Assembly: GCA_902557605.1 (NCBI GenBank)
Contig: CACEAQ010000005.1
Span: 1 to 34,856, forward strand
DNA length: 34,856 bases
DNA from: an uncultured Pelagibacteraceae bacterium
GTDB taxonomy: Bacteria > Pseudomonadota > Alphaproteobacteria > Pelagibacterales > Pelagibacteraceae
Direction of reading: 5' to 3'
Below, piece by piece: positions 20,463-34,856 of the stretch. Every line of letters starts with the position of its first letter. The first letter of the stretch is position 1. A program made the translations under genes and the position numbers. The notes beneath the pieces are model-generated. The model saw only the letters and a program-made list of their open reading frames with translations. It was not told where the DNA came from and ran no database searches.

Positions 20463-21425
20463 ATGGAATTAACAATCGAAAAAGCCAAGTTTCATCAAAT
20501 TTCCTTAAAACAAGTAAGCGAAGCTTTAAAAAAAGGTTTATCTAAAAACTATATCGAAGTTGACGTTTCGATTGTTGAATGCCCTGATCTAAGAAAATGG
20601 GATTGCCCTGCTGAAGGTATAAGTGGAAATCAAAGAATTATTGATGTTGGAGGTGAACCATACATGCACGATAAAAGGTTCATAGGTACAGAATTTGATT
20701 ATGAAGAAATAGCAAAAAGAATAGGCTCTGAAAAATCATATGCATTAGGTGCAGGTTCAGGAGCAATGTCTTGTTTGGAGGGTCACTGCGGAGAACTTAT
20801 TATTAATGAGAATTTAATAACTAACGAGTCAAAATCTGTAATTGCTCAAGTTGATGAAAATAAAAAATGCAAATCAACGTCATACACTCACAGAAAACAT
20901 GGCGGACTAGGAAATATATATTACTCCGAAGGAAAAAAAGGAAATGTTATAAAAATTAGAATTAAAGGAAGGTCAGGTGAGCAAGGCTCTTTACCTCAAT
21001 CTATTAGAACTGCATTAATTGAAAATTTACAAACAAACTTAAGTGTTGCGCTGGGTGGTGTGTTTAGGATCTTAAATGGTAAGATTAAATCCCATGTTCA
21101 ACCAGACTATGCAGATATAAAACACGAATATTATGATCCAAAACAAATGAAATGTGTTAAGGATTTTTTACAATTTTACGAACCTATAGGGCCACATTTT
21201 CAATGCTATTCAGTTTTATGGACTAATGATCCCTCTGGAGGAAAATTAGATTTAAGAGAATCAGGAGAACACACTCATTTTCATTCTTATAAAGGTGCTC
21301 AGGATGCAGGTCATTATCATTTCGATGTAACCCCTAATGAAATTGAATATGAATGCTATTTCAATACCGCCGAAGAAGTTCATAGAGTAAACAATATTTA
21401 CAAGGAATTGAAAAATACTAATTAG
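20463..21425 (+). CDS. DUF1907 (C11orf54/PTD012-like) zinc protein
   Basis: A 320-residue protein that matches the DUF1907 family, whose human member C11orf54 (PTD012) is a zinc protein with reported ester hydrolase activity. Shared segments I recognise are VDVSIVECPDLRKW (33-46), the IIDVGGEPYM block (59-68), ALGAGSGAM (94-102), GKIKSHVQPDYAD and HFDVTPNEIEYECYF (286-300). The zinc site is the HxH...H pattern: H270 and H272 in EHTHFHS and H284 in GHYHFD. The physiological substrate is not known to me for any member. It is followed after 17 bases by the PanB-like gene, with which it is probably cotranscribed. Confidence 0.88.
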   Translation: MELTIEKAKFHQISLKQVSEALKKGLSKNYIEVDVSIVECPDLRKWDCPAEGISGNQRIIDVGGEPYMHDKRFIGTEFDYEEIAKRIGSEKSYALGAGSGAMSCLEGHCGELIINENLITNESKSVIAQVDENKKCKSTSYTHRKHGGLGNIYYSEGKKGNVIKIRIKGRSGEQGSLPQSIRTALIENLQTNLSVALGGVFRILNGKIKSHVQPDYADIKHEYYDPKQMKCVKDFLQFYEPIGPHFQCYSVLWTNDPSGGKLDLRESGEHTHFHSYKGAQDAGHYHFDVTPNEIEYECYFNTAEEVHRVNNIYKELKNTN

Positions 21426-21442
21426 TTTGATTAAATATAAAT

Positions 21443-22255
21443 ATGAAAAATATTTATACTTGGGCGGCTAATCCTGCAAAAAGAACTGTCACTGTAGGTG
21501 ATATTATTGAAGCTAAAGGAAAAAAAATTCTTACACAAGTAACTGCAAATAATTCATTAGAGGCAAAAGCAGCTGAAGAAGCAGGTTTTGACATGATAAT
21601 AGGAAGTGCTTCAAATGTTAAGAAGGTTCGGGAAGGATCCAAGACTCTTTTTTATACGGCAGCACTCGAACTACATAATTATCCTACAGCCGAGGATGTG
21701 TTACGTGGAGCCTTTAAAGCTTTAGAGAATGGTGCTGATGCGGTTATGACTGCCAGAAGTATGGATGTTGTTTCTATGCTTGCAAAAGAAGATGTTCCAG
21801 TTATGGGTCATTTAGGTTTGGTTCCTAGAAAATCTACATGGATTGGTGGCTTAAGAGCTGTAGGTAAAACTGCTGATGAAGCATACGAACTATTTAAAAA
21901 ATTTAAACGTTTAGAGGATGCTGGGGCCTTTTCAGCCGAATGTGAAGTTATTCCTGAAAATATTATGGGGGAAATATCAAAAAGGACGAAGATTGTAACT
22001 GTATCTCTAGGATCTGGAAAAAAAGCTGATGTTATGTATCTATTCATGAATGATATCTGTGGAGAGCAAGAAAAGTCCCCTAGACATGCAAAAGCTTATA
22101 CAAATTTAAAAAAGATGAAAGATGAAATTGAAGTTGAAAGAGTTAAAGCCTTAAAAGCTTTTATCAAAGATAGTTTAGAGGGGAAATTTCCTGGGCCTGA
22201 AAATTCAGTAAATGTTAGTGAAGAAATTTTAGAAAATTTTAAAAAGAAACTTTAA
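21443..22255 (+). CDS. PanB-like (ketopantoate hydroxymethyltransferase family) protein
   Basis: A 270-residue TIM-barrel protein of the PanB/isocitrate-lyase-like group. GHLGLVP (122-128), GGLRAVGKTADEA (135-147) and AGAFSAECEVIP (160-171, with E168 at the catalytic Glu position) are PanB-like. However, PanB's metal ligand in GDSLG is replaced by GSASN (54-58). The stretch that normally carries a third ligand in KLEGG is missing, because the chain runs directly from ADAVMTARS into GHLGL. True ketopantoate synthesis is therefore unlikely; a related aldol or retro-aldol reaction is possible. It overlaps the convergent DMT permease gene by 4 bases. Confidence 0.8.
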   Translation: MKNIYTWAANPAKRTVTVGDIIEAKGKKILTQVTANNSLEAKAAEEAGFDMIIGSASNVKKVREGSKTLFYTAALELHNYPTAEDVLRGAFKALENGADAVMTARSMDVVSMLAKEDVPVMGHLGLVPRKSTWIGGLRAVGKTADEAYELFKKFKRLEDAGAFSAECEVIPENIMGEISKRTKIVTVSLGSGKKADVMYLFMNDICGEQEKSPRHAKAYTNLKKMKDEIEVERVKALKAFIKDSLEGKFPGPENSVNVSEEILENFKKKL

Positions 22256-23178
22256 TCTTTTTTAATAGGAATAGTTGGGTGTCTTGCTGTTGAGGTAACA
22301 ATGTTTTTCTTTAATTTTACCTCTCTCAAAACGATATATACACCTGCTGCAATTATTATTAAGTTTCCTATATAATTATTAATTGTAGGTATCTCATTAA
22401 AAACAACGTAACCCAAAAATACACCTGCAAAAATTTGAGTATATAAAATTGATCCAAAAATCGCTCCAGGCAGATGTCTGGCGGCATTGATAACAAATAT
22501 CATGGCTGTTCCTCTAGAAATTCCAGAAATAGCGTTCAAAACTAAATCATTAAAAGTCATCTCTTTGAAAACAAAGAATACAAATATACCAGAAAACAAT
22601 ATCATAAAAATCTTTCCGAATATTAAAAATGAGAACAAGCTTTCCTCATAACCATATTTTCTTACTATTAAATAACTTGCAGATGCAAAAATTGGGCACA
22701 ACAAAGCTACAAATACGTAACTGTTAATTTCGGCTCCAAAAGGATTAATAGAAATAAGTGTACCGATAAAACCAATTACTATAGCAGTAAATCTTTTCCA
22801 TCTAACAACTTCACCTAAAAATAAAACCGATCCGATGGTTATTAATAACGGTATTAAAAATACAATACTGTACATAGTAACCATTGGTAATAAATAGAAT
22901 CCTGTGTAGGCAAAAAAAACAGCTAACACCATCGTTAAAGTTCTAAAAAAATGGATTTTTAAATTTGCACCCTTTAATTCCTTCCAGCCATTAAGGGTTT
23001 GGGTGTACAAAATAATAGGTATAAGAGCAAACAAGGAGTTAACGAAAATTATCTGTATTATGTCGTAATCTTCAGCAATATATTTTACTATTGCGTCTTG
23101 AGTTACAAATAAAAAATATCCAAGACAAGCTAAAAAAAATTCGGGAAGATAATTCTTCTCCGATAATTTTGAATTCAT
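22252..23178 (-). CDS. DMT/EamA-family permease
   Basis: A 308-residue inner-membrane transporter of the drug/metabolite superfamily. About ten hydrophobic helices in two EamA repeats are visible, with the second repeat beginning near SYVFVALLCPIFASASYLIVRKYG. Conserved features include FLGEVVRWKRF at the end of repeat 1 and VFNEIPTINNYIGNLIIIAAGVYIV at the end of repeat 2. Members export or import small metabolites; substrates are rarely predictable. It shares a TAATG with the upstream phyH gene, so it is the probable last gene of the livK-to-permease unit and may export a product or take up a related compound. Confidence 0.88.
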   Translation of the reverse strand: MNSKLSEKNYLPEFFLACLGYFLFVTQDAIVKYIAEDYDIIQIIFVNSLFALIPIILYTQTLNGWKELKGANLKIHFFRTLTMVLAVFFAYTGFYLLPMVTMYSIVFLIPLLITIGSVLFLGEVVRWKRFTAIVIGFIGTLISINPFGAEINSYVFVALLCPIFASASYLIVRKYGYEESLFSFLIFGKIFMILFSGIFVFFVFKEMTFNDLVLNAISGISRGTAMIFVINAARHLPGAIFGSILYTQIFAGVFLGYVVFNEIPTINNYIGNLIIIAAGVYIVLREVKLKKNIVTSTARHPTIPIKKD

Positions 23179-24161
23179 TAAATAATATTTGCTAAATCTC
23201 TTTTAGTTCCTTTGAAAGTAGGAAGAGGATATTTATAAGACCATTTTCTTGGAATGCATTTTACTTTAGCTTTTTCCCATAAAGCAATCCATTGTTTGTA
23301 ATTTTGCACTTTGATTTTATTTTTGTTTTTGCTTTTGACAACAAAATTAGGTAATGGATCTCTTCCTGAAGGCTGACCTGCTTTATTATATCTCAAGTCC
23401 ATACTTATTCTAAAATTTTTTGATTTATTTGGTAGTGAACAATGAAGTAGATATCTATTTAATAATATTATATCGCCGACGTCAGCTTCAAGAGGCACGG
23501 TTGATAATTTATCAATTATTTCTTTGCCTCTAACTTCTACTTGTCCCTTACTTCCAAAATCGTGGTTAACAAGTCCAAATTTATGACTTTCTTTTACAGC
23601 AAGCATACAACCATTTTCTATTCTTGTTTTAGTAAAAGGTATCCAACAAGTTACTAATTCAGTACCCTTTTGTCCTTTTTTATTCATAACACCGGCATCT
23701 TGATGCCAAGGAGTTCTTCCAACTAGGCCGTCATTTAAATTCTTTTTTGCAACACCTTTTTCAGGTTGTTTGATTCTTGAATTTTGACAAGGATTAGAAG
23801 CTATTTCGGGACCTAGAATTTTTTCAATCTTATCTAAAATTTTTTTATTTTTAATTAAATTCCATATTGATTGACTTGCAAAAAAATCGCTATTAGCGTT
23901 TATGTTTTTTTCAGGAAGTCTTATGTTAAAATATTGATCAAGTTCAGGAATATCCAAAGAAACCAAATATGAGTATTTTTTTTTAAACTCATAATTTAGT
24001 ACTTTTACTTTGTCACTTTTAGGAACAAATCTATGAATGAGCCTATCCATGATAAAAGCCATATCATTTAAAATTGGTTCTAAATCCTCTTTATAATCTA
24101 AAACACCCTTTAATCTTATGAAACCTTGTTTCTCAAAAATTTTTTTAATATTTTGGCTCAT
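23178..24161 (-). CDS. Phytanoyl-CoA dioxygenase (PhyH) family oxygenase
   Basis: A 327-residue non-haem Fe(II)/2-oxoglutarate oxygenase. The facial triad is H153 and D155 in PWHQDAG and H240 in LLHCSLPN, with R251 in NFRISMDLRY as the expected 2-oxoglutarate ligand. CWIPFTKTRIENGCM between them is typical PhyH (WIPL...NG.L). Members hydroxylate many small substrates, so the name does not imply phytanoyl-CoA. It lies 38 bases after livG and just before the permease gene on the same strand. This suggests it acts on material brought in by the ABC transporter. Confidence 0.9.
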   Translation of the reverse strand: MSQNIKKIFEKQGFIRLKGVLDYKEDLEPILNDMAFIMDRLIHRFVPKSDKVKVLNYEFKKKYSYLVSLDIPELDQYFNIRLPEKNINANSDFFASQSIWNLIKNKKILDKIEKILGPEIASNPCQNSRIKQPEKGVAKKNLNDGLVGRTPWHQDAGVMNKKGQKGTELVTCWIPFTKTRIENGCMLAVKESHKFGLVNHDFGSKGQVEVRGKEIIDKLSTVPLEADVGDIILLNRYLLHCSLPNKSKNFRISMDLRYNKAGQPSGRDPLPNFVVKSKNKNKIKVQNYKQWIALWEKAKVKCIPRKWSYKYPLPTFKGTKRDLANII

Positions 24162-24199
24162 TGAATCGTAATGAATGGGAAAATATTATCAAATTCATT

Positions 24200-24997
24200 T
24201 TAGACTGCAAGTGCTTTTCTCATCTCTTCATCGTCCATTTTTTTACCCAAATACGCCTCGATTACAGCATTGTCATCTTTTACTTGAGCTGGAGTACCCT
24301 CTGCAATTTTCTGACCATGGTCAAAAACAGTTACTGAATTACAAGTATCCATTACAACTTTTAAAATATGCTCTATAATAATAAGAGTAAGGCCATATTT
24401 TTCTTTTAGCTGCATAATAATTTTCATTAAATTATCTACGTTGACTGGGGATAAACCTGCGGCTGGTTCGTCTAACATTAGTAATTTTGGTTTCATAGCG
24501 ATTGCTCTTGCTAAAACTAATAATCTTCTCTGACCACCAGAAAGCTCGCTAGCATTTAGCTCTGCATAGTCTGCTAATCCTACAAAAGAAAGGAGTTCCA
24601 TCATTTCCTCTTTGATAGCTCTTTCTTGATCCCAGATTTTTTTTCTTCCTATAACTGCATCGAAAAACTTGTAAGGCACTCTAGTATGATACCCTGACAT
24701 AACATTATCTATAACTGTCATATCTTGGTAAAGTCTTAGTAATTGGAACGTTCTTGATAAACCATAGGTAGCAATCTCATGTGGAGGTGCAAAAGTAATA
24801 TCATGACCATCAAACTCAATATAGCTTCCAGGATCGCTATCATAGATTCCTGAAACTAAATTAAAAAATGTACTTTTGCCTGAGCCATTGGGTCCAATTA
24901 TTCCTCTAATTTCATTTTTTGGAAGTTCAAAATCAACTTTATTAATAGCTTTCAAACCACCAAATGATTTAGACAATTGTTTAGTTTTTAAAATCAT
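24200..24997 (-). CDS. livG: Branched-chain-type ABC transporter ATP-binding protein LivG
   Basis: Cytoplasmic ATPase of a HAAT (Liv-type) importer. Walker A is GPNGSGKST (36-44), the signature LSGGQRR and Walker B LLMLDEPAAGLSP follow, and the H-loop His lies in IIIEHILKVV. RTFQLLRLYQDMTVIDNVM is characteristic of LivG. At 265 residues it has the usual length, longer than LivF, with a C-terminal tail (DDEEMRKALAV). It overlaps livM by 4 bases (ATGA). The partner LivF is encoded on the opposite arm, on the far side of livK. Confidence 0.93.
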   Translation of the reverse strand: MILKTKQLSKSFGGLKAINKVDFELPKNEIRGIIGPNGSGKSTFFNLVSGIYDSDPGSYIEFDGHDITFAPPHEIATYGLSRTFQLLRLYQDMTVIDNVMSGYHTRVPYKFFDAVIGRKKIWDQERAIKEEMMELLSFVGLADYAELNASELSGGQRRLLVLARAIAMKPKLLMLDEPAAGLSPVNVDNLMKIIMQLKEKYGLTLIIIEHILKVVMDTCNSVTVFDHGQKIAEGTPAQVKDDNAVIEAYLGKKMDDEEMRKALAV

Positions 24998-25986
24998 GAT
25001 GTTTTTTCTGTTCCAGTTTTCTTTTTAAATCTCTTTTCTAAGAAATATCTGTCAATAAAACCGCCTAAACCCTTAGGCATAAACAAAATAGTTAATACAA
25101 TTGTTAAACCAAATATTAAAAGCTGATATTTATATAATGGTCTAGTTAAGTCATAAACAATTGTAATGACTATAGCGCCAATAATTCCACCCCAAATATG
25201 ACCGAGACCTCCTAGGACAACCATAGCTAAGAAGGTTACCATTTCTATAACTGTGTAATTATTAGGATGAATGTATCCTGGAGGCATATGAGCATAAACT
25301 GCACCTGCCGCACCAGCAAACATAGCGCTAAGAATGAAAGCTAAGATCTTATATTTTTTTACATTAATTCCAGCGGCTGCAGCACAAATTGGATCCTCTC
25401 TGATAGACATAAACGCTCTTCCAACTCCAGATCTTAAAATACTGAATGAGAAGTATACCGCTATAATCATTATTGTCATTGAGATGAAATAATATCTATC
25501 TGGGGAGTCGAAATTGTAGCCCATTAAAGAAGGTGTTGGAATATCAGAAATACCAAATGTAGATCTAAAAAAGTTTCCGTTTTCAATAAATAATCTTATT
25601 GCCTCACCTCCACCTAATGTCGCTAAGGCTAAATAAGGACCTTCCAATCTAAAAGATGGAATTCCCATTGCTACTCCAAAAAATGCAGTAACTATTATAG
25701 CTATGGGTAAAGTTGCCCAAAAACCAAGTCCTAAATATAAAAACAATGTTCCAGCAGTGTAAGAACCAACTGCAAATAAACCAACGTGTCCAACTGTAAC
25801 TTGACCACAATAACCCTTAACAATGTTTAGTCCTGCGGCTACCACAATGTTCACAAATATTAAAGTAGCTAAATGTGACTGATAAACATCCGTGAAAACT
25901 ACTGATGGTACAAAAGCTAAGATGACGAAAGCTATAATAAAAGCAATAAAAGGATAATCTCTGATAATCGATTTAAATTTTTCCAT
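24994..25986 (-). CDS. livM: Branched-chain-type ABC transporter permease LivM
   Basis: Inner-membrane permease of 330 residues with about ten hydrophobic segments. The family motif GYCGQVTVGHVGLFAVGSYTAG (58-79) and the EAA-like loop SGVGRAFMSIREDPICAAAAGINVKKYKILAF (about 186-217) are clear. GGLGHIWGGIIGA and the C-terminal MPKGLGG are also typical of LivM. It is coupled to livG at its end and to the 2OG-oxygenase gene at its start (TAATG). Confidence 0.94.
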   Translation of the reverse strand: MEKFKSIIRDYPFIAFIIAFVILAFVPSVVFTDVYQSHLATLIFVNIVVAAGLNIVKGYCGQVTVGHVGLFAVGSYTAGTLFLYLGLGFWATLPIAIIVTAFFGVAMGIPSFRLEGPYLALATLGGGEAIRLFIENGNFFRSTFGISDIPTPSLMGYNFDSPDRYYFISMTIMIIAVYFSFSILRSGVGRAFMSIREDPICAAAAGINVKKYKILAFILSAMFAGAAGAVYAHMPPGYIHPNNYTVIEMVTFLAMVVLGGLGHIWGGIIGAIVITIVYDLTRPLYKYQLLIFGLTIVLTILFMPKGLGGFIDRYFLEKRFKKKTGTEKTS

Positions 25987-26852
25987 TATCCAACTTCTCT
26001 CATTAAATAATCTGAGTCATGTGAAGATGTGAGCATTCTTTTGTTTGTTTTCTTAATTTTGGGTAAATAACTAACGTTTTTATATCTCCATACAACAGGT
26101 TTACTTAAGGCATAACTTCCATAAATGAAAAATCTTTTCTTGCCTTTGATTTCTCTAAATAAAGATACACCATGGTAAGAGTTAGGTGTAGATTGGAAAA
26201 AAATTACACTCCCTTTTGACGGAGTAAATTCTTTGACTTTTGCTAGTTCAGAAATACCAGGAAATCTTTTAAAACTTTTTCTATATTTCATATCAGTTTT
26301 CTTTTTAAAAATTGATAAAGCTCCGCCATTTTTTTTTGGTATATCGTTTAAATAAATAAGAAAATTATAAAGTCTTGTTACATCATCTCTGTGCGGCCTT
26401 AACCTATATCCGCCCCTAGAAACAGAAAAATCTATGTCTAAATTTACATTCGGGTTTTTGTAAGTTTTACCTAACATTTTCATTAATTCTTTTGAATTCA
26501 TTAATTTTTTATTAGTAAACTTTTCCCTCAAAAATTTGCTGGGCAAGTATACATTTGACCAACCATAATCCTTAAAAGTTTTTTTAAATCTATTTTCAAC
26601 TTTTTTGTAAAAAGATTGGCTATTAAATTGTTTATATAATTTGTTAGATAATTTTGATTTTTTTAGATAATTTTTAAAATTACTTGACCCTTTGTTTATT
26701 CTATTTCTACCACCTTGTATTAAATCATCGAATGATTTTGCATTTCGAATTTCGTCTATGAGTTTTTCACAATCTTTTTTTGAAATAGCACCTTGGCCAA
26801 CCATTACAGGAAAGTTGCTTTTTACTTTCTTCAATTTATTAACGTTTATCAT
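25986..26852 (-). CDS. 2-oxoglutarate/Fe(II) oxygenase inside the liv cluster
   Basis: A 288-residue oxygenase of the prolyl-hydroxylase-like 2OG-Fe(II) group. Iron ligands are H154 and D156 in RPHRDD and H227 in SYHGVS, and R240 in KKRFFIYGSY should bind 2-oxoglutarate. FLIYLNDIPKKNGGALSIF between them is the typical strand pattern, and GSVIFFQS precedes the second His. A Lys-rich N-terminal half has no recognised domain. The gene is wedged between livK's terminator and livM, overlapping livM by 1 base, an unusual place for an enzyme. Small-molecule or protein substrate cannot be told from sequence. Confidence 0.88.
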   Translation of the reverse strand: MINVNKLKKVKSNFPVMVGQGAISKKDCEKLIDEIRNAKSFDDLIQGGRNRINKGSSNFKNYLKKSKLSNKLYKQFNSQSFYKKVENRFKKTFKDYGWSNVYLPSKFLREKFTNKKLMNSKELMKMLGKTYKNPNVNLDIDFSVSRGGYRLRPHRDDVTRLYNFLIYLNDIPKKNGGALSIFKKKTDMKYRKSFKRFPGISELAKVKEFTPSKGSVIFFQSTPNSYHGVSLFREIKGKKRFFIYGSYALSKPVVWRYKNVSYLPKIKKTNKRMLTSSHDSDYLMREVG

Positions 26853-26868
26853 TTTTGTGGTTTCCTTG

Positions 26869-26900
26869 AAAAAATGAGCGGTAGTTTTACCTACCGCTCA
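26869..26900 (-). terminator. Intrinsic terminator after livK
   Basis: A perfect 10-base-pair stem, TGAGCGGTAG (26875-26884) and CTACCGCTCA (26891-26900), with a 6-base loop, is GC-rich for this genome. Read on the minus strand it is followed by six U (26869-26874). It lies between livK and the oxygenase-livM-livG genes, so it probably ends most livK transcripts and lets a fraction read on. A run of seven T on the other side means it could also work from the plus strand. Confidence 0.92.
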
Positions 26901-26915
26901 CAATTTTTTTAACTA

Positions 26916-28106
26916 TTATAAACCAGCGCTAGCATTAAATGTTACAGTACCAGCAACTTTTGTTTTAAAGTTTTTTCCACCTTTAGTGTACTCAATCATA
27001 ACAGGAGTTCTGTTACCATCTCTACACTCAGGTGTTCCTGATTTACAGAAATTGATTGGACCAGAAGCTAAACCTCTAAAGTCAGTTGTCGCAGCAATCG
27101 CGTCTCTTACTTTATTTCTGTCAGCAGCTAGATCTCCAGTGAATTTAACTTTTTTAAGAGCTATCTCTAGAATATCTAGTAAGTCCATCATTTGTGAAAA
27201 GTCGTGACCAGGTACAACACCGTATTTGTCTTTTACCATTTTCACAAATTTCTTAGCTACAGGTCTAGTGTCAGATGCAGCGAATGCAGCTGAGAAAGTT
27301 ACACCTTTTGCAGCAGAACCAGCATTTATTGGTATCTCTACTTTAGAACCAATAGAAGCTGTTACTCTGTGAACAGATTTTGGTATTCCAACTTCATACG
27401 ATTGTACAAGTCCTCTAACTGTTTCATCCAATAAAGCTGAAATTACAAGAACTTCTGGATTAGTAGCTTTAGCTTTAGTTAAGTAACTTCTAAAGTCAGT
27501 TTCTTTTTCTCCAGATTGAACCATATAAGTTGGCTCAACGTTGTAGTTCTCTCTCATGTAATCAGCTAAAGATAATGCAAAATCTTTACCAGCAGCATCT
27601 GGACCATAGATATAAGCTATCTTAGTACCTTGATTTTCTGCAGTAAATTTACCTTGTACGATTTTGTAAAATCTTGATGATACAGGCACTCTAAAAATGT
27701 ATTCACTACCTTTTTTAGTAATGTCAGCATTTGTTGAGTGAGGTATTATTTGTGGAACTTTAGCTTTAGCTGAAACAGGTACCATAGGTAATGTTACAGA
27801 ACTACAGCTAGATCCAATTATAACGTGAACTTTATCTTGGTAAGCAAGTTTTGTTGCGTTTGCTACACCTTTTTCAGATTTACACTCATCGTTATAAAGT
27901 GTTAGGTCGATTTTTTGCCCGTTGATAGTGCCTTCTTTATTCCACTTTGCAACAGTATCAGTAATTAACTCTCCGTGTTTATAACCAACATCTGATAGCA
28001 TTCTAAAAGAAACACCAATTTTGATTGTTTCTGCATGAGCTAATGTCGTGATTACTAAACCTGCGGAAAAGACAATTGCTGAAAAAACAAATTTAAGTTT
28101 ATTCAT
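26916..28106 (-). CDS. livK: Periplasmic Liv-type substrate-binding protein
   Basis: Type I periplasmic binding protein of a branched-chain-type ABC importer. A signal peptide (basic MNKLK, hydrophobic core, AHA-ET cleavage after about residue 25) is followed by TIKIGVSF, a domain with VIIGSSCSSVTLPMVPVSAKAKVPQI, and the central IAYIYGPDAAGKDFA. I start it at 28106 because a GGGGGA ribosome site precedes that ATG at good spacing; the in-frame ATG at 28118 would put four extra residues before the signal peptide. Length is about 396. Ligands of this family include amino acids, amides, carboxylates and aromatics; this one is unknown. Confidence 0.93.
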   Translation of the reverse strand: MNKLKFVFSAIVFSAGLVITTLAHAETIKIGVSFRMLSDVGYKHGELITDTVAKWNKEGTINGQKIDLTLYNDECKSEKGVANATKLAYQDKVHVIIGSSCSSVTLPMVPVSAKAKVPQIIPHSTNADITKKGSEYIFRVPVSSRFYKIVQGKFTAENQGTKIAYIYGPDAAGKDFALSLADYMRENYNVEPTYMVQSGEKETDFRSYLTKAKATNPEVLVISALLDETVRGLVQSYEVGIPKSVHRVTASIGSKVEIPINAGSAAKGVTFSAAFAASDTRPVAKKFVKMVKDKYGVVPGHDFSQMMDLLDILEIALKKVKFTGDLAADRNKVRDAIAATTDFRGLASGPINFCKSGTPECRDGNRTPVMIEYTKGGKNFKTKVAGTVTFNASAGL

Positions 28107-28218
28107 TATTTCCCCCATTTGTTATTTAATTGTTGCTAAGGCTATAAAATAATAGTTATAATGTCTATGACTAATAGTTACATTTTTGGTAAATCAGAAA
28201 AAAAAAATTGGAGGATGA
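28107..28218. promoter_or_regulatory. Divergent liv regulatory region with 9-base direct repeat
   Basis: This spacer drives livK to the left and livF onward to the right. On the plus strand a consensus -10 TATAAT (28157-28162) follows TTGCTA (28133-28138) at 18 bases, a plausible promoter. TAATAGTTA occurs twice (28150-28158 and 28172-28180), 22 bases apart, that is two helical turns. The first copy overlaps the -10, as expected for a repressor or tandem activator site. No regulator gene is in the window. A -10 for livK on the minus strand is not clear to me. Confidence 0.55.
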
Positions 28219-28938
28219 TTGCTTAAGATAGATCAACTTATTTCTGGATATGGCTCTGTACAAATTTTAAATGGAGCTAATATGAAAGTTGAAAAACAAT
28301 CTATAGTTGCATTGCTTGGTGGTAATGGAACAGGCAAATCAACAATTCTTAGAGCTGCATCTGGATTAATTAGATCTTGGAAAGGTACGATTGAATTTGA
28401 TGGTGAACAAATTCAAAACTTACCTGCTCACGAAATAGTTGGAAGAGGATTAGTGCAAGTAACTCAAGGAAAGGATGTTTTCCCTGCAATGTCTGTTACC
28501 GAAAATTTAAAATTAGGTGGATTTATTTTAAAAAGTAAACAACAACTGTCAGATAATTTAGAAAAAGTTTATAACTATTTTCCAAGGTTAAATGAAAGAA
28601 AAGATCAGTTGGCTGCAACTTTATCAGGTGGAGAGTTACAAATGTTATGTATTGGAAGAGGGTTAATGTCTAATCCTAAAATGATAATGCTAGACGAACC
28701 TAGTGCTGCTCTAGCGCCTCAAATTGTTTTAGATATCTTTAAAAACATTAATAGAATTAGACAAGATGGATTAACAGTTCTTGTGGTAGAACAAAATGTT
28801 AGGATGGCATTATTGCTTGCTGATTACGGGTATGTAATTAAAGACGGTGTGATCAATGTTGAAGGCGATAGTAAGAAATTAATGTACGACGAAAGTGTAA
28901 AAGAGTCATATCTTGGAGGGACTAAAGCCAATGTTTAA
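28219..28938 (+). CDS. livF: Branched-chain-type ABC transporter ATP-binding protein LivF
   Basis: Second ATPase of the importer, 239 residues. Walker A is GGNGTGKST (about 34-42), the signature LSGGELQML, Walker B MIMLDEPSAALAP, and the H-region reads VLVVEQNVRMAL (Q-N in place of a His pair, as usual for LivF). GLVQVTQGKDVFPAMSVTENL is the LivF Q-loop region. The start is TTG at 28219: GGAGG (28210-28214) lies 4 bases upstream, and the nearby ATG at 28215 is out of frame and stops after three codons. It overlaps livH by 8 bases. Confidence 0.93.
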   Translation: MLKIDQLISGYGSVQILNGANMKVEKQSIVALLGGNGTGKSTILRAASGLIRSWKGTIEFDGEQIQNLPAHEIVGRGLVQVTQGKDVFPAMSVTENLKLGGFILKSKQQLSDNLEKVYNYFPRLNERKDQLAATLSGGELQMLCIGRGLMSNPKMIMLDEPSAALAPQIVLDIFKNINRIRQDGLTVLVVEQNVRMALLLADYGYVIKDGVINVEGDSKKLMYDESVKESYLGGTKANV

Positions 28939-29968
28939 TAAATTGAGAATTGGAAAAAAAGGTGAAAATATCATATTTGGAACATTCGTGCTGCTTTATA
29001 TCGGCTGGTGCGTGAATAGCCCCGATATGAATGTTGAATCGCTCAAATCAGTTTTAACAATTGGTCTTTCTGTTGGTATTATTTATGGCTTAGTTGCGCT
29101 TGGAATTTCATTAATCTACACAGGTCTAGATGTAGTTAATTTTTCTCACGGCGAATTTTTCATGATAGGTGCATTTGCGGGTCTTACTATGTTTAATCTT
29201 TTGGGCAATCAAGATTGGATTTTTAATTTATTTCCTGATGCTTATGGTTGGATAATTTACGTAGTTTGTTTATTTACAGCCTTTGTTTCAATGGGTTTAT
29301 TTGGAGTTTTTATTGAAAGAGTTTTCTTAAGACCTCTAACAAAAAAAGGTGGCGGTTACACTGTAGCTGGAATGGGAATAATCATATGTGGATTTGGTCT
29401 TTCAGTAGTTTTAATAAACGTTGCTTATTTAATTTGGAATCCAGTAGCAAAACCTTTCCCTGCTGAATTAGGTTTGCCAATGGAAATTGGAGGACTATTT
29501 TTACCGATTACTTATATTTGGATGATTGTAGTTGGTTTATCTGTAGCTGCAGGTCTTTGGTTCTTTTTAAATAAAACAAAAATGGGATTAGGTATTAGAG
29601 CCGTAGCTTACTCTAAAGATGTTTCAAATCTGGTTGGGATAAATGTACCACTATACATATCAATTATTTTTGGTATTGCTTGTGCCATAGCAGGTATAGG
29701 AGGAACTTTAGTTGGTCCAACTTATCAAGTTGTTGTATTCATGGGTTATATCATTCTTATGAAAGCTTTCGCTGCTGCGGTCGTAGGTGGTTTTGGTAAT
29801 CTGCCTGGTGCAATAGTTGGAGGTTTTACAGTTGGAATATTTGAAACAGCTTCTTCTTTTTATATTTCTGGAAGTCACAAAGATTTATACGCCTTTTTAT
29901 TAATGATAGTTGTTTTAATGATCAAGCCAACAGGCTTCTTTGGTGTTCAAGTTAAAATGAAAGCTTAA
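28931..29968 (+). CDS. livH: Branched-chain-type ABC transporter permease LivH
   Basis: Inner-membrane permease with eight or more hydrophobic segments. GISLIYTGLDVVNFSHGEFFMIGAF carries the LivH hallmark NFSHGEF, TKMGLGIRAVAYSKDVSNLVGINV is the EAA-like cytoplasmic loop, and GGFGNLPGAIVGGFTVG is the C-terminal motif. I place the start at ATG 28931, 10 bases after GGAGGG (28915-28920), giving 345 residues; the TTG at 28913 is part of the livF coding end and a poor candidate. The stop overlaps the next ATG by 1 base. Confidence 0.93.
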   Translation: MFNKLRIGKKGENIIFGTFVLLYIGWCVNSPDMNVESLKSVLTIGLSVGIIYGLVALGISLIYTGLDVVNFSHGEFFMIGAFAGLTMFNLLGNQDWIFNLFPDAYGWIIYVVCLFTAFVSMGLFGVFIERVFLRPLTKKGGGYTVAGMGIIICGFGLSVVLINVAYLIWNPVAKPFPAELGLPMEIGGLFLPITYIWMIVVGLSVAAGLWFFLNKTKMGLGIRAVAYSKDVSNLVGINVPLYISIIFGIACAIAGIGGTLVGPTYQVVVFMGYIILMKAFAAAVVGGFGNLPGAIVGGFTVGIFETASSFYISGSHKDLYAFLLMIVVLMIKPTGFFGVQVKMKA

Positions 29969-30912
29969 TGATAAAGAAAGATACAAAAGTTGCAGTATTA
30001 GGTGCTGGTGCTATGGGCTGTCTTTTCGGCGGGTTGTTAGCTGAAAAAGGTTTAGAGGTTCATCTTATTGATGTTTGGAAAGAACATGTAGACGAAATTA
30101 ATAGTAAAGGTTTAAAAATGATGGGTCATGGCGGAGATAGAACAGTAAAAATCCATGCTACGACTGATCCAAAAACTTTAAAGCCAGTCGATGCAATAAT
30201 TATTATGTGTAAAGCTACAGCTTTAGAGCAAGCTTTATCCAATTCAAAAAATATTATCGGAGATAATACAGTGCTAATGTCATTTCAAAATGGTATTGGG
30301 CATGAAGAAATCATGCAAAAAATAGCTGGTAAAGAAAAAGTTTTAGGTGGTTCCACAACACAAGCTTCTAGTATTCAAGGTCCTGGAATAATTCAAAACC
30401 ACGCAAGTTTGCCATCATGGATTGGTGAATACGAAGGTGGTTCAAGTGAAAGGGTAAAAGATTTAGCTGAAACTTTTACTGCACATGGCTTAGAAACAAT
30501 TGCAGAAGAAAATATCAAAAGAAGAAAATGGATGAAATTATTTGCTTTAACAGCAATTGGTCCGTTATCTGCAATATTTGATTTACATCATACAGATTTA
30601 TACATTTCTAATAAAAATCAGACCATGTCTCGAAAATTAGGTAAGGATATAATCCTTGAAACTAGAGAAGTAGCAAAAGCCGATGGAGTTGATGTAAGTG
30701 AAAGTGATTGTTTAGAAATGTTCAATAGGATAGTAGATTCAAGACAAACCAACAAATCATCTATGGCATTCGATGTAGTAAAGCATAGAAAAACAGAAAT
30801 TGATTTCATTAGTGGAGCTGTTTCAAAAATTGGAAAAAAACATGGGATTAAAACACCTTTAAATGACCTCATGTATAATATTATTAAGATTAAAGAGGGT
30901 ATGTACGTATAA
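29968..30912 (+). CDS. PanE/ApbA-family 2-oxoacid reductase, altered pocket
   Basis: A 314-residue NAD(P)-dependent reductase of the ketopantoate reductase family. The nucleotide site is GAGAMGCLF (12-20), N108 lies in FQNGIGHE, catalytic K190 in RRKWMKL, and E277 in KTEIDF. The two Asn that hold ketopantoate in E. coli PanE (NxxxN four and eight residues after the Lys) are Leu194 and Gly198 here. So the fold and chemistry fit PanE, but the substrate is probably a different 2-oxo or hydroxy acid. It sits between livH (1-base overlap) and the acyl-CoA synthetase (5-base gap), tying it to the imported compound. Confidence 0.87.
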   Translation: MIKKDTKVAVLGAGAMGCLFGGLLAEKGLEVHLIDVWKEHVDEINSKGLKMMGHGGDRTVKIHATTDPKTLKPVDAIIIMCKATALEQALSNSKNIIGDNTVLMSFQNGIGHEEIMQKIAGKEKVLGGSTTQASSIQGPGIIQNHASLPSWIGEYEGGSSERVKDLAETFTAHGLETIAEENIKRRKWMKLFALTAIGPLSAIFDLHHTDLYISNKNQTMSRKLGKDIILETREVAKADGVDVSESDCLEMFNRIVDSRQTNKSSMAFDVVKHRKTEIDFISGAVSKIGKKHGIKTPLNDLMYNIIKIKEGMYV

Positions 30913-30917
30913 GACTT

Positions 30918-32831
30918 GTGTCTAAAGAAATTATTTGGCAACCATCAAAAGAGCAAATTGAAAATTCAAAACTAACTAAGTTTATTCAGCATTGTAAATT
31001 AAAAGATTATGATGAGTTAGAAAAAAAAAGTTTTTCTGATCCAGGATGGTTATGGGACAATGTAATAAAATTTTCAGATTTAAAATTTTATAAACCATAT
31101 TCAAAAATATTAGATGAATCAAAAGGTATCCCTTGGACTAAATGGTGTGTTGGGGGAAAAACTAATATAGTTTTAAATTGTATAGATCGACATAAAGACA
31201 AAGAATTTTTCAAAAACACTTTTATTTTTGCTGAAAGAGAAGATGGCAAACAAAGCTCAATAACTTATGAAGAATTTGATAAGCAAATCTCAAAAGTTGG
31301 AAATACTTTAAAAATAAATGGATTTAAAAAAGGTGATGTGATTGCACTTTACATGCCTCAATTTATAGAAACTTACATTGCTTATTTTGCTATTTTAAAA
31401 ATTGGGTGCGTAGTGCTACCTTTATTCTCTGGATATGGATCAAAGGCAGTTATTGAAAGACTCAAAATAGCAAAAGCTAAAGGTATTTTTACTGTTGAAA
31501 AGACATTTAGAAAAGCAAAAGAGATAAGAATGTTTGATCAAATTAAAGATGATTTAAATCAAGTCATTTCTATAGAAAAAATATTTTTATTAGGAAAAGA
31601 AAAAGGAAAGAAAATCTTTAATTGGGAAAATTTTCAAAATGTTTCTGATAATTTAAAGACAGAGGAAACTGATGCTGAAGATCCTGCTATTATCCACTTT
31701 ACATCAGGTACAACTGGAAAACCGAAAGGATGTGTTTATACTCATATTGGTTTAGTTGCTAAGATGTCTTTTGATGAAGGAGTTTTAGCAGACTTTAAAC
31801 AAACTGATATTCATTTGTGTATGGCTGATATGGGATGGATGGTGGGCTCTAAGTCTGCAACAATAGCTTCTGCACACGGAGCGCAAATGGTAATTGCTGA
31901 GGGAGTACCTGATTTTCCTGATGAAGTTCGTTTTTGGAAACTAATAGAAAAATATAAGGTTTCCTGGACGGAGCTTTCCCCTGCTCTCATCAGAGCACAA
32001 ATGATTAAAGATGAAAAACTTTTTAAAGATTTAGATTTAAGTTCATTAAGAATGATTTGTACTGGAGGAGAACCTTGGACGGAAAAACCTTGGAAATGGT
32101 TATTTCAAGTCATAGGTAAATCTAAAGTTCCTATTATGAATTCAGCTGGGGGTACTGAGGTTTCTGGTTCTATATTACATTGTTGTTTACATCGTCCTTT
32201 TAAGGTTGGATCTTTTAATGCTCCTATTCCTGGAATGAGCGCGGATATCTTAAATTTAGATGGACAAAAAGTTTCCACAAATGAGATGGGCGAATTAGTC
32301 ATGAGAAAATCATCAATCGGATTAACTAAGAGCTTATGGAAAGATGATAAGCGTTACATCGATAATTATTGGAGCGTAATTAAAGATTATTGGGTGCATG
32401 GTGATCTTGCAAGTAGAGATGCTGATGGTCATTGGTATTTACATGGAAGATCTGATGATACCATTAAAGTATCAGGTAAAAGAATAGGTCCTTCTGAGCT
32501 TGAGAGTGTAATAGTGAAAAGTGGAAAAGCAAAAGAGGTTGCTGCTGTTGGAATACCTGACGTAAATAAAGGTTCAAAAATAATTTTATCTATAGTTCCT
32601 GCAGAAAATAATGATCAAAAAGAAAGTTTTTTTGAAGATTTAGTTATAAAAGATTTAGGAAAATCATTTAAGCCTGATAAGGTAATTTTTGTAAAAGATT
32701 TGCCTAAAACAAGAAATATGAAGATTATGAGAAGAGTTATAAAATCATGTTTATCAAACCAAGACCCGGGGGATTTATCAACGCTATTAAATCCAGAATC
32801 TGTAGAGGAGATTAGATCTCATGCAATTTAA
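30918..32831 (+). CDS. Acyl-CoA synthetase (acetyl/acetoacetyl-CoA synthetase-like)
   Basis: AMP-forming ligase of 637 residues that activates a carboxylate to its CoA ester. An ACAS-type N-terminal segment (DPGWLWDNVIKFSDLKFYKPYSKILD, about 41-66) precedes the core. The P-loop-like FTSGTTGKPKG lies near residues 257-267, then MADMGWMVGS, SAGGTEVSGS, WVHGDLASRDADGHWYLHGRSDDTIKVSGKRIGPSELE, and the C-terminal catalytic Lys region TRNMKIMRR. The start is GTG. Size and N-terminal domain point to the acetyl/propionyl/acetoacetyl-CoA synthetase group, but the acid is not defined. It overlaps the crotonase gene by 11 bases. Confidence 0.9.
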   Translation: MSKEIIWQPSKEQIENSKLTKFIQHCKLKDYDELEKKSFSDPGWLWDNVIKFSDLKFYKPYSKILDESKGIPWTKWCVGGKTNIVLNCIDRHKDKEFFKNTFIFAEREDGKQSSITYEEFDKQISKVGNTLKINGFKKGDVIALYMPQFIETYIAYFAILKIGCVVLPLFSGYGSKAVIERLKIAKAKGIFTVEKTFRKAKEIRMFDQIKDDLNQVISIEKIFLLGKEKGKKIFNWENFQNVSDNLKTEETDAEDPAIIHFTSGTTGKPKGCVYTHIGLVAKMSFDEGVLADFKQTDIHLCMADMGWMVGSKSATIASAHGAQMVIAEGVPDFPDEVRFWKLIEKYKVSWTELSPALIRAQMIKDEKLFKDLDLSSLRMICTGGEPWTEKPWKWLFQVIGKSKVPIMNSAGGTEVSGSILHCCLHRPFKVGSFNAPIPGMSADILNLDGQKVSTNEMGELVMRKSSIGLTKSLWKDDKRYIDNYWSVIKDYWVHGDLASRDADGHWYLHGRSDDTIKVSGKRIGPSELESVIVKSGKAKEVAAVGIPDVNKGSKIILSIVPAENNDQKESFFEDLVIKDLGKSFKPDKVIFVKDLPKTRNMKIMRRVIKSCLSNQDPGDLSTLLNPESVEEIRSHAI

Positions 32832-33591
32832 AGATATATTATATGAAGTTAAAGGTGATTACGCTCATGTCACTATTAATAGACCTAAGGTATTAAATGC
32901 TTTTACACCAGTAACTCTTCAAGAACTTAAGGCTGCTCTCGACGCTGCAGAAAAAGAAAAAGAAGTTGGAGTAATAGTTTTATCAGGTGCTGGAGATAGA
33001 GCTTTTTGCTCAGGTGGAGATATGAATTGGGAAAGCTCTAAAGAATTTCAAGATCACGAATACGAATTTCATATTCACTTAACAAAATGTAGTAAACCAA
33101 TTATAGCAAAAGTTGATGGATACGCGATTGGTGGTGGAAATCATATGGCTTACTTTTGCGATTTAACTATTGCAAGTGAGAATTCTATATTTGGTCAAAA
33201 TGGCCCCAGAGTTGGTTCTCCAGCCGGAGGAGCTATAGTTGCCCACTCTGCAAATATTTTAGGACACAAACGTGCAAGAGAAATGTGGATGACTTGCAAA
33301 AGATACTCAGCAAAAGAGATGATGAATTGGGGTTTGGTAAATTCAGTAGTGAAGAAAGATAAATTAGATGAGGAAGTTAAAAAGTATGGCGATGAAATTT
33401 TAAAAGCTGCACCAACTTGTTTAAAGATATTAAAGGCTAGTTTTAGAAAACAATTTGAAGAAATTTTAAAAATTACCCAAAAAGGTATGGTCGAAGAAGT
33501 TGCTCCTGATTATTTTAAAACTGGAGAACAGGCTGAAGGCGCAAAGGCCTTTCTAGAAAAAAGAAAGCCAAATTTCAAAAAATTTAGATAA
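32821..33591 (+). CDS. Crotonase-family enzyme, MenB/BadI-like
   Basis: A 256-residue enoyl-CoA hydratase/isomerase-fold protein. The first oxyanion segment is AFCSGGD (61-67); the second is GYAIGGGNHMAYFCDLTIA (100-118). FGQNGPRVGS (124-133) and KRAREMWMTCKRYSAKEMMNWGLVN (150-174) closely follow the MenB and BadI pattern (naphthoyl-CoA synthase and 2-ketocyclohexanecarboxyl-CoA hydrolase) rather than ordinary hydratases. The catalytic Asp of MenB, in GSFD, is Ala135 here (GSPAGG). No other men genes are present, so a ring-forming or ring-opening CoA reaction, or simple hydration, is possible. TAATG overlap with the next gene. Confidence 0.87.
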   Translation: MQFKDILYEVKGDYAHVTINRPKVLNAFTPVTLQELKAALDAAEKEKEVGVIVLSGAGDRAFCSGGDMNWESSKEFQDHEYEFHIHLTKCSKPIIAKVDGYAIGGGNHMAYFCDLTIASENSIFGQNGPRVGSPAGGAIVAHSANILGHKRAREMWMTCKRYSAKEMMNWGLVNSVVKKDKLDEEVKKYGDEILKAAPTCLKILKASFRKQFEEILKITQKGMVEEVAPDYFKTGEQAEGAKAFLEKRKPNFKKFR

Positions 33592-34679
33592 TGAAAATTA
33601 AATCAATCAAAGCAATCACTTTGAGTATGCCGTTTAGCCATGGGGGAAAAAAGGTAATTTTTCATGGAAAAGAATGGAAAAGTTTAGAATTTAATTTAGT
33701 AAAAATTGAAACAGATAAAGGTATCACTGGTTGGGGTGAGGCCTTTGGTTATACAAGTTGGAAGGCAGTAAAAATAGCAATTGAAGAAATGGTGGCTCCT
33801 TTACTCGTTGGAAAAGATATGAGTAATATACCGGAACTTCTTTTAACTCTTCAAAAATCTTTGCACTTATTTGGTAGATACGGGATAACAATGTTTGCAA
33901 TATCTGGTGTTGAAATTGCTTTATGGGATGCTTTAGGCAAAGAAAAAAATAAGCCAATTCATGAATTGTTAGGAAAAAAAAATAAGGATCTATTTAAAGC
34001 CTATTCAAGTCTTTTTAGATATGGAGATCCAAAAATTATAGAGCAAAAATGTAAGCAATCATTAGATGATGGTTACCAAGCTATAAAACTTCATGAAATA
34101 GAAAATGATTGCATTGAAGCTGGAAGAAAAGGAACGGGTCATCTTCCTTTAATGTTAGATACTAATTGTCCTTGGACTTATGAAGAAACATTATCCAAAA
34201 AAGATTTTTTAAAAAGTATGAAACTAACCTGGTTGGAAGAACCTATTTACCCGCCGGAAGATTATGAAACTCTTGCAAAATTGAATAAAGAACTTGAAAT
34301 ACCCTTAGCCTGTGGGGAAAATGCGTGTACAGAATTTGAGTTTAAATCAATGATCAAACAAAAAGCAGTTACTTTTGTTCAACCGTCAGTAATTAAAGTT
34401 GGTGGTATTTATGAAATGTTCAAAATTATTCAGCATGCAGAAAAAAATAATGTCTCTGTAATGCCTCACACTGCTTATTTTGGACCAGGTTTTTTAGCTA
34501 CTCTTCAATTAGCTGCGTTGATGGAAAAAGATACATATATTGAGAGATTCTATTTAGATATTGATCAAGAATTCTACCCAAATTTTAAAAGAGCATTAAA
34601 TGGGAAATATAAATTACCTTCAGGACCAGGTCTTGGTATTGACTTAGATTATAATAAATTAAGTAAATATGAAATATAG
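33591..34679 (+). CDS. Mandelate racemase/muconate lactonizing family enzyme
   Basis: A 362-residue enolase-superfamily protein. The N-terminal capping domain has ITGWGEAFG (45-53). In the barrel, K166-x-H168 (AIKLHE) sits at the second-strand acid/base position. Metal ligands are D190 (LMLDTN), E216 (WLEEP) and E243 (ACGEN), and H293 in MPHTAYFGPG is the seventh-strand His. The Asp that usually pairs with this His (QPD) is Ser266 here (FVQPSVIKVGG). It is probably a sugar-acid or hydroxy-acid dehydratase or an epimerase; the substrate is not predictable. It overlaps the following CitE-like gene by 11 bases. Confidence 0.87.
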   Translation: MKIKSIKAITLSMPFSHGGKKVIFHGKEWKSLEFNLVKIETDKGITGWGEAFGYTSWKAVKIAIEEMVAPLLVGKDMSNIPELLLTLQKSLHLFGRYGITMFAISGVEIALWDALGKEKNKPIHELLGKKNKDLFKAYSSLFRYGDPKIIEQKCKQSLDDGYQAIKLHEIENDCIEAGRKGTGHLPLMLDTNCPWTYEETLSKKDFLKSMKLTWLEEPIYPPEDYETLAKLNKELEIPLACGENACTEFEFKSMIKQKAVTFVQPSVIKVGGIYEMFKIIQHAEKNNVSVMPHTAYFGPGFLATLQLAALMEKDTYIERFYLDIDQEFYPNFKRALNGKYKLPSGPGLGIDLDYNKLSKYEI

Positions 34680-34856
34680 ATCTGTTTTATTTGTTCCAGG
34701 ACATGAAGAAAAAAAAATTAAAAAAGCTTATACATTAAATGCAGATTTAATTGTTCTTGACTTAGAGTCAACTGTTCCTGATGATCAGAAAGAACAGGCA
34801 AAAAAGACAATAAAAGAATGCAATGTTAATAAAGATCAAACATATATAAGGATAAA
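34669..34856 (+). CDS. CitE/HpcH-family C-C lyase, 3' end outside window
   Basis: The first 62 residues of a gene running off the window. ATG at 34669 opens YRSVLFVPGHEEKKIKKA, then ADLIVLDLESTVPDDQKEQAK. This is the HpcH/HpaI aldolase and citrate-lyase-beta start: R-S-x-L-F-V-P-G, then the acidic D-L-E of strand 2, written DLEDSVP in most members. Such enzymes cleave citryl-, malyl- or citramalyl-CoA or related hydroxyacyl-CoA esters. The start lies inside the end of the preceding gene, so it continues the livF operon and would make a fitting last step after CoA activation. Confidence 0.85.
   Translation, partial: MKYRSVLFVPGHEEKKIKKAYTLNADLIVLDLESTVPDDQKEQAKKTIKECNVNKDQTYIRI

Follow-up and report, generated by a model that had tools for sequence, protein, structure and literature searches.

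Two described routes are the closest comparison for the locus reported here. In the cyclohexanecarboxylate route of Rhodopseudomonas palustris, the acid is converted to its CoA ester, the ring is oxidised to a beta-oxo-CoA, and BadI opens the ring. Quinate and shikimate catabolism runs to protocatechuate via AroQ/QuiB, QuiC and LigAB. SAR11 bacteria are among the most abundant in the ocean, and small, simple molecules are usually named as their diet. Here we analysed one whole contig of 34,856 bases (CACEAQ010000005.1, assembly GCA_902557605.1; "the window") from the 661-kb, 56%-complete genome of an uncultured Pelagibacteraceae bacterium. An earlier reading of the letters alone (the sequence-only reading) had described a complete Liv importer joined to a seven-enzyme organic-acid pathway in this contig. 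We found that these genes form part of a larger accessory catabolic island. We tentatively propose, at a little less than even confidence, that the island may serve to take up a hydroaromatic (quinate/shikimate-like) acid and to open its ring in a CoA-dependent way.

Results

The importer and enzyme genes lie in one inserted island

In all four island-less genomes inspected (G021, G034, G002 and G014), gltX, PDDEXK, TonB-like, HDAC-like, lpxB, GSDH-family, lpxI and lpxA genes were consecutive. The PDDEXK anchor had been sought in eight genomes and was present in five, including these four. Some island-less genomes carried one small open reading frame between the TonB-like and HDAC-like genes. 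In the window and its relatives, the SDR end of the block abuts the HDAC-like gene, and in L035, L180 and similar island genomes the GFO3 end abuts lpxB. Both ends were visible on one contig in G081 (L180, L197), while L038 showed a right end adjoining trxB instead of lpxB. Because the ends abut HDAC-like and lpxB genes that are contiguous in island-less genomes, the set from SDR to GFO3 is the inserted block. These results indicate a single accessory catabolic island, which relatives showing both flanks carry between the HDAC-like gene and lpxB. The whole block is missing from an otherwise contiguous site in 4/4 genomes inspected, as expected of a genomic island; the island genes scanned included no integrase or transposase, so the block does not classify as a self-mobile element. 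Within the window, G+C was 0.319 in the block vs 0.294 in the flank.

The island measures about 20 kb, from the SDR gene at 18889 to about 4 kb past the window end, an extent judged from L035. Its left part reads SDR, HpaH-like, DUF1907, PanB-like, EamA, PhyH, livG, livM, 2OG, livK, and its right part livF, livH, panE, acs, crotonase, MR/MLE, citE, (GGACT), GFO1, (GFO2, GFO3). The sequence-only reading had placed the left border at 22252, which is too far right. All seven of its enzymes are present in a set that is larger than it described, since the same insertion adds the SDR, HpaH-like, DUF1907, PanB-like and GFO genes.

The histone-deacetylase-like (HDAC-like) gene at 17963-18892 shares 4 bp with lpxB where the island is missing and 4 bp with SDR where it is inserted; either way, its start retains an upstream overlap. 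Both this gene and the TonB-like gene (17077-17724) remain at the empty site and were rejected as pathway members.

The set is conserved and linked across SAR11 genomes

Of 91 genomes of the genus, most of them incomplete, 32 carried a crotonase of at least 90% identity, counting the window's own genome and one partial copy. The same search gave none at this level in 53 same-order or 6 same-class genomes, where the best match was 50%. Crotonases 90-100% identical occurred in records of uncultured Pelagibacteraceae, SAR11 PRT-SC02 and Pelagibacterales SAG-MED28/41, which places the window in SAR11. Gene retention was counted over 32 SAR11 loci besides the window, all selected by the crotonase (which is thus present by construction). 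Only loci whose contig spans a gene's usual place were considered, and a match of at least 48% identity anywhere in the locus was taken as presence. Retention was complete for acs (32/32), MR/MLE, panE and livH (each 31/31), livF (28/28), livK (27/27), livG, livM and PhyH (each 23/23), EamA (21/21) and SDR (5/5). It was slightly lower for citE (30/31), GFO1 (27/28), HpaH-like (8/9), PanB-like (14/17) and DUF1907 (14/16), and lower again for GFO2 (22/27), GFO3 (21/26) and GGACT (18/29). The 2OG oxygenase at 25986-26852 proved dispensable (22/25; missing in L172, L181 and L194). Since the same genes recur together in other SAR11 genomes, their grouping is not due to chance. The sequence-only reading had proposed conservation across SAR11 as the test of its idea; the set survived it, the importer, PhyH, panE, ligase and MR/MLE genes being missing in none of the covered cases.

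In L037 (G056, a SAG-MED41 record), livG and livK are each split into two frames and the other cluster genes are full-length; these breaks may reflect sequencing error or decay, and both genes were counted as present.

Over the 91 genomes, crotonase and livK occurred together in 28, crotonase alone in 4, livK alone in 4 and neither in 55 (Fisher p 4e-15, shared ancestry of the genomes being ignored). This count took crotonase matches of at least 90% only, the weaker matches in most other genomes being other crotonases, and left out G528-G532. All eight mismatches were contigs ending inside the cluster. PanB-like copies of at least 84% (G000-G090) were confined to genomes with livK or the crotonase, a 31% match in G007 being excluded. 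G086 is rearranged: livK is collinear with acs-crotonase-MR/MLE-citE-GFO1, and the importer operon includes panE. As importer and enzymes stay together despite this rearrangement, a functional link is favoured.

The best-surviving alternative is that the island holds no single pathway but two or three modules sharing an insertion site (EamA-PhyH-panE-GFO1-DUF1907; Liv with acs-crotonase-MR/MLE-citE; SDR-HpaH-PanB). Reduced versions in genomes without livK fit this idea. In G532, EamA-PhyH-panE is followed by GFO1-DUF1907 (L335:8505-13587), with no importer or CoA genes in the 19-kb stretch around it. G024, which also lacks a close crotonase, has EamA, PhyH, panE and DUF1907 on a 4.3-kb contig (L334). 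It would also explain the variable presence of GGACT, GFO2, GFO3 and 2OG, and the order in G072, where, on a contig truncated at either end, panE precedes livM-livG-PhyH and not the ligase. No close crotonase copy was found in G072, and because panE there precedes livM instead of the ligase, the crotonase may truly be missing. We nevertheless consider the modular explanation rather unlikely, given the almost perfect co-occurrence of importer and crotonase, the gene order of G086, and the SDR, panE, GFO1 and HpaH-like genes that accompany the same importer outside SAR11 (see below). The island genes thus likely serve a single pathway, as the sequence-only reading had held; conservation and linkage to the importer bear it out, with the qualification set by G532, G024 and the dispensable 2OG gene.

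Importer relatives outside SAR11 point to a hydroaromatic substrate

The closest non-SAR11 livK genes found, at 49-55% identity, came from 4 of 278 other class-sample genomes (G343, G265, G356 and G150). Further relatives were added from 76 genomes of the order of G356 (G566, G573 and G544) and from 4 genomes of the family of G343 (G513). Seven of these eight served as case loci, L348 (G150, 4.1 kb) being left out and L354 (G573) spanning only 4.5 kb. At thresholds of at least 150 (panE), 160 (SDR), 150 (GFO1) and 100 bits (HpaH-like), relatives of the window genes were found at 6/7, 4/7, 4/7 and 3/7 loci, respectively, and each at 0/78 control loci (1.36 Mb, of mixed taxonomy and length, retrieved on account of other genes). 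One more HpaH-like gene lies in a stretch adjoining the G356 locus (L357), giving 4/8 genomes at 24-27% identity. The SAR11 genes share 37-41% (SDR), 34-40% (panE) and 61-62% (livG) identity with these clusters. Of the two SDRs in these clusters, it is the one beside panE that the SAR11 SDR matches, and GFO1 matches the cluster Gfo far better than GFO2 or GFO3 does. The fuller clusters also carry an acyl-CoA dehydrogenase, a CoA-transferase, MaoC, a second SDR and a xylose-isomerase-like protein.

Hydroaromatic or protocatechuate genes were found near the importer relatives in 4/8 genomes (dehydroquinate dehydratase in 3, a QuiC-like gene in 3, shikimate dehydrogenase in 1, dioxygenase in 1). 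Beside the importer of G343 lie a type II 3-dehydroquinate dehydratase and also a shikimate dehydrogenase, each scoring higher than its curated cut-off. By similarity to the G343 genes, G566 has a dehydroquinate dehydratase and a QuiC-like fragment beside the importer, and G544 a QuiC-like gene. In G356, the importer lies between a dehydroquinate dehydratase, assigned in the same way, and protocatechuate 4,5-dioxygenase genes. For G513, G573 and G150, the contigs are too short to show such neighbours. The CoA-transferase of the non-SAR11 clusters has a close relative in 13 plasmid records; in two of the three regions viewed (Bosea and Shinella, not Azoarcus) it lies less than 4 kb from an annotated shikimate dehydrogenase.

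Judging from these neighbourhoods, the best-supported substrate class is that of polyhydroxylated cyclohexane or cyclohexene carboxylates. The earlier suggestion of a probably cyclic substrate thus gains support from the closest non-SAR11 importer relatives, and the compound itself stays a matter of inference. For the hydroaromatic reading, we infer the following order of steps and products. LivK-LivHMGF would import the acid, and the PhyH and 2OG enzymes may first hydroxylate it or strip side groups. PanE-, SDR- and Gfo/Idh/MocA-type dehydrogenases would oxidise ring hydroxyls to ketones, and the acetoacetyl-CoA-synthetase-like ligase would activate the resulting beta-oxo acid. The MenB/BadI-like crotonase could then open the ring hydrolytically, after which the MR/MLE enzyme, CitE-like lyase, HpaH-like hydratase and PanB-like protein would break the open chain into small acyl-CoA and 2-oxo acids.

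Several observations weigh against this proposal. All seven enzymes score under the equivalog cut-offs, and their reactions are therefore assigned by family only. No dehydroquinate or dehydroshikimate dehydratase (neither QuiC nor AroQ) was found among the island genes scanned. None of acs, MR/MLE and citE was found at any of the seven non-SAR11 importer-relative loci, and the substrate clue therefore comes from the importer half only. The G566 and G544 loci, of 20 kb each, showed no HpaH-like gene, and about 26 kb beside the importer of G265 showed no dehydroquinate, QuiC or Lig gene. The QuiC-like dehydroshikimate dehydratase of G343 scores 845 bits, under the curated cut-off of 1200, and AroQ and AroE are also biosynthetic genes. 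Because two livK-less genomes keep a reduced set, the block may encode more than a single route. We consider doubtful the bolder possibility that part of SAR11 carries a new dioxygenase-free hydroaromatic route, with a new MenB/BadI-like hydrolase, MR/MLE subgroup and short CitE-like lyase, and that SAR116-like bacteria feed a related importer into the protocatechuate route.

Family tests of the enzymes

The panE product belongs to the ApbA/PanE family (TIGR00745, 248 bits vs a subfamily cut-off of 141.35), which supports the family and not ketopantoate as substrate. The ligase is under the cut-offs of AcsA (TIGR02188, 463.8 vs 724.95 bits) and AacS (TIGR01217, 247.1 vs 520.9 bits). The crotonase is about equally close to BadI (TIGR03210, 247.7 bits, cut-off 467.6) and MenB (TIGR01929, 235.6 bits, cut-off 342.7) and reaches neither. 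Compared with MenB, it retains the Gln, Gly, Ser and Trp positions, and Ala replaces the Asp of GSFDGG; we take GQxG...S and RExW to be the bicarbonate/active-site positions of MenB/BadI crotonases. The full CitE-like copy in L035 (PF03328, 103 bits) does not reach the lyase cut-offs (TIGR01588, 108.9 vs 443.4; NF038242, 95.1 vs 375).

The MR/MLE enzyme belongs to its superfamily, with N and C domains and the metal ligands D, E and E. Among 36 aligned rows selected by similarity to the window enzyme, KLH occurred in 35 (the other having KVH), Ser instead of the QPD Asp in 36/36 and a PH motif in 36/36. All five PDB relatives shown have Asp at this position, which in MR/MLE sugar-acid dehydratases presumably pairs with the catalytic His. 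The subgroup was found in 39 of 385 alphaproteobacterial genomes searched, the window's own included. Its members (window 33591-34679, loci L122-L150) share KLH, mostly NCxW, PPE(D/N) or PPDD, GEN and QPSVxKxGG motifs. Relatives occurred in 34 plasmid records. In the seven regions viewed, an annotated shikimate dehydrogenase lay near one (Bradyrhizobium), iolCDB near one (Agrobacterium 1D1108) and neither near five; the shikimate dehydrogenase neighbour counts in favour of the hydroaromatic reading. Subgroup genes adjoin ABC or TRAP importers in several plasmid regions.

The enzymes could also form one pathway whose substrate is an acyclic sugar acid or cyclitol, with Gfo oxidation, MR/MLE dehydration to a 2-keto-3-deoxy acid and a finish by the crotonase and CitE-like lyase. 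GFO1 and GFO3 indeed scored best against the inositol 2-dehydrogenase model, GFO2 against levoglucosan dehydrogenase and the MR/MLE enzyme against arabinonate and galactonate dehydratases, and one MR/MLE relative is the one near iolCDB. Yet all of these scores are far under the equivalog cut-offs, including those of characterised sugar-acid dehydratases, and the MR/MLE subgroup has Ser where the five PDB relatives have Asp. A CoA ligase and a MenB/BadI-like crotonase are, to our knowledge, foreign to sugar-acid routes, and AroQ/QuiC/LigAB lie beside importer relatives in 4/8 genomes. We consider this explanation unlikely.

LivK and the importer

With one Peripla_BP_6 binding protein, two BPD_transp_2 permeases and two ATPases, the importer belongs to the HAAT/Liv type. 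All subunits score under the NCBIfam cut-offs of the corresponding E. coli Liv models, and "Liv-type (HAAT) importer" is therefore the proper name. The genome's other LivK (L001) has TAYGKG, GGYHTE and SGDA, and in the alignment the window LivK and four relatives differ at the Tyr, Tyr and Asp. We take the Tyr, Tyr and acidic residue of LIVBP to be the clamp for the alpha-amino group; the window LivK does not have this mark of amino-acid-type HAAT importers. Because these clamp residues are replaced, import of common branched-chain amino acids is unlikely. The predicted LivK structure (pLDDT 43) was too poor to use, and plasmid searches with the window LivK and the G343 LivK gave no match at the limits set.

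An importer for branched-chain amino or oxo acids or pantoate, handled by the PanE- and PanB-like enzymes, would suit the family names LivKHMGF, ApbA/PanE and PanB-like, but is very unlikely: LivK and its four relatives lack the clamp residues kept by the genome's other LivK, that genome has a separate Peripla_BP_6 protein scoring higher (205 vs 122 bits), the PanB-like protein is under its cut-off, and we know of no role there for the CoA, MR/MLE and MenB/BadI-type genes. Pantoate catabolism, as suggested by the PanB/PanE names, was rejected on the scores and also left the CoA genes unexplained.

Gene layout and control region

The genes of the island in the window are listed in Table 1. Open reading frames and family profiles matched the gene list and coordinates of the sequence-only reading (importer, oxygenases, permease and seven enzymes), including all five subunit genes of the Liv importer that it had called complete. 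It was also right that nearly all junctions overlap: 8/11 same-strand junctions do so, the livF/livH overlap depending on a TTG start of livH, and the remaining gaps are 38 bp (PhyH/livG), 63 bp (2OG/livK) and 5 bp (panE/acs). In relatives, the CitE-like gene is full (216 aa); a GGACT-family gene comes next in some of them, and then one to three Gfo/Idh/MocA dehydrogenases.

The single divergent promoter of the same reading was not supported by a scan for promoter-like matches. In 27900-28400 (501 bases), one sigma-70-like match was found (TTGCTA-18-TATAAT, + strand, within the livK/livF gap) vs a shuffle mean of 2.6, which is not above chance, and livK is collinear with enzyme genes in G086. 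The 100-bp gap is conserved in four relatives in an alignment from which the L189 row was left out, and a shared divergent control region between livK and livF is plausible.

Table 1 Island genes in the window (CACEAQ010000005.1, 34,856 bases)
Feature	Position	Strand	Supporting match
SDR oxidoreductase; left edge of island	18889..19635	-	Pfam adh_short 119 bits
HpaH/DmpE-like 2-oxo-acid hydratase family protein	19632..20411	-	TIGR02312 51.7 bits, far under cut-off
DUF1907 protein	20463..21425	+	PF08925 214.6 bits
PanB-like (ketopantoate hydroxymethyltransferase family)	21443..22255	+	PF02548 127.9 bits; under NCBIfam cut-offs
EamA/DMT-family permease	22252..23178	-	PF00892 56.9 bits
PhyH-family 2OG-Fe(II) oxygenase	23178..24161	-	PF05721 68.8 bits
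livG, importer ATPase	24200..24997	-	ABC_tran + BCA_ABC_TP_C
livM, importer permease	24994..25986	-	BPD_transp_2 136.7 bits
2OG-Fe(II) oxygenase within importer operon, between livK and livM	25986..26852	-	PF13640 41.1 bits
livK, substrate-binding protein	26916..28118	-	PF13458 121.8 bits
Intergenic region, 100 bp, livK/livF divergent; presumed promoter region	28119..28218	.	
livF, importer ATPase, TTG start	28219..28938	+	ABC_tran 100.4 bits; PRK11614 (LivF) 224 bits, under cut-off
livH, importer permease	28913..29968	+	BPD_transp_2 120 bits
ApbA/PanE-family 2-hydroxyacid/2-oxoacid dehydrogenase (panE)	29968..30912	+	TIGR00745 248 bits
AMP-forming acyl-CoA synthetase, acetyl-/acetoacetyl-CoA synthetase group (acs), GTG start	30918..32831	+	AMP-binding 233, ACAS_N 46 bits
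Crotonase, MenB/BadI-like	32821..33591	+	BadI 247.7, MenB 235.6 bits; relatives of 54-59% in other Proteobacteria
MR/MLE (enolase superfamily) enzyme, KLH/QPS subgroup	33591..34679	+	PF13378 148.2, PF02746 81.8 bits
CitE/HpcH-like C-C lyase, first 62 codons, ends at contig end	34669..34856	+	PF03328 31.7 bits

Partial gene sets outside SAR11

A crotonase profile search of genome contigs was read from the best 80 of at least 570 stretches, 43 of them from SAR11 and 37 from other organisms. Among the matches listed, crotonase relatives of 48-59% identity came from Beta-, Alpha- and Gammaproteobacteria, Chloroflexi and single actinobacterial records. Within these best 80, the full gene set was absent from all 37 non-SAR11 crotonase neighbourhoods, and a ligase match of at least 150 bits lay near the crotonase in 9 of the 37. 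L271 has an MR/MLE relative about 5 kb from its crotonase, and L265, L267 and L272 have other Liv-type importer genes near theirs. On a Leisingera plasmid, the crotonase lies close to an acetoacetate-ligase-like gene (26% to the window ligase). The best partial match among the class stretches inspected was a crotonase-ligase pair in G349 (43% to the window ligase); a beta-oxo-acid ligase beside a cyclic beta-oxo-CoA hydrolase is chemically sensible. Class-genome searches covered 385 genomes with the crotonase, 385 with MR/MLE and 289 with the ligase. The full set was found neither in 20 stretches around 5 crotonase and 15 MR/MLE matches nor in 20 around ligase matches, and a plasmid search with the ligase gave no match at the limits set.

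A recurrent betaproteobacterial cluster was also observed (L251:4156-16230, Hydrogenophaga sp. IBVHS1; similar loci L246, L247, L250 and L252). In L251 it consists of an AMP ligase, an enoyl-CoA hydratase, a CaiB-type CoA transferase, an ACAS_N-type ligase and a 58-59% crotonase, followed by an acyl-CoA dehydrogenase, MmgE/PrpD, a CitE-family lyase and a citrate-synthase-like protein.

Discussion

Importer-linked catabolic islands are already known as a kind, and this island is not a new category. No paper was recognisable by its title or the start of its abstract as describing the cluster, within a scope that had most subscription papers and all bioRxiv preprints outside it; none of the six terms looked for in PMC12636525 was found there. 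If the hydroaromatic reading is true, a ring-acid island present in 32/91 genomes of one genus would link defined SAR11 lineages to a specific class of marine dissolved organic carbon that is open to testing, and LivK offers a single protein for substrate screening. The MR/MLE subgroup and the MenB/BadI-like crotonase clade are unnamed in the libraries used and are found in many Proteobacteria, and their function could follow from the same experiments.

Four known or recurrent systems resemble the island in part. The Hydrogenophaga/Acidovorax clusters (L246, L247 and L250-L252) share with it the 58-59% crotonase, an upstream ACAS_N-type ligase and a downstream CitE-family gene. They differ in that none of their genes matches Liv, MR/MLE or panE, and L251 in having CaiB, acyl-CoA dehydrogenase, MmgE/PrpD and citrate-synthase-like genes. 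The genes of quinate/shikimate catabolism stand beside importer relatives in non-SAR11 genomes, whereas no dehydroquinate or dehydroshikimate dehydratase or ring-cleaving dioxygenase is among the genes of the SAR11 island. The Liv-panE-SDR-acyl-CoA dehydrogenase-CoA-transferase-Gfo-MaoC clusters, fullest in G356, G566, G544 and G343 and partly seen in G265 and G513, have a related importer (livK 49-53%), panE, SDR, Gfo and sometimes HpaH-like genes in common with the island. Where they carry CoA-transferase, acyl-CoA dehydrogenase and MaoC, SAR11 has the ligase and the MenB/BadI-like crotonase, MR/MLE and CitE-like genes. Compared with the badHI-aliAB route of R. palustris, the island has a crotonase under the BadI cut-off, a ligase of the acetoacetyl-CoA-synthetase group, no acyl-CoA dehydrogenase, and extra MR/MLE, CitE-like, PanB-like and oxygenase genes. 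What the two would have in common is the chemistry we propose for the island, namely CoA activation, oxidation of the ring to a beta-oxo-CoA, and ring opening by an enzyme of the crotonase family.

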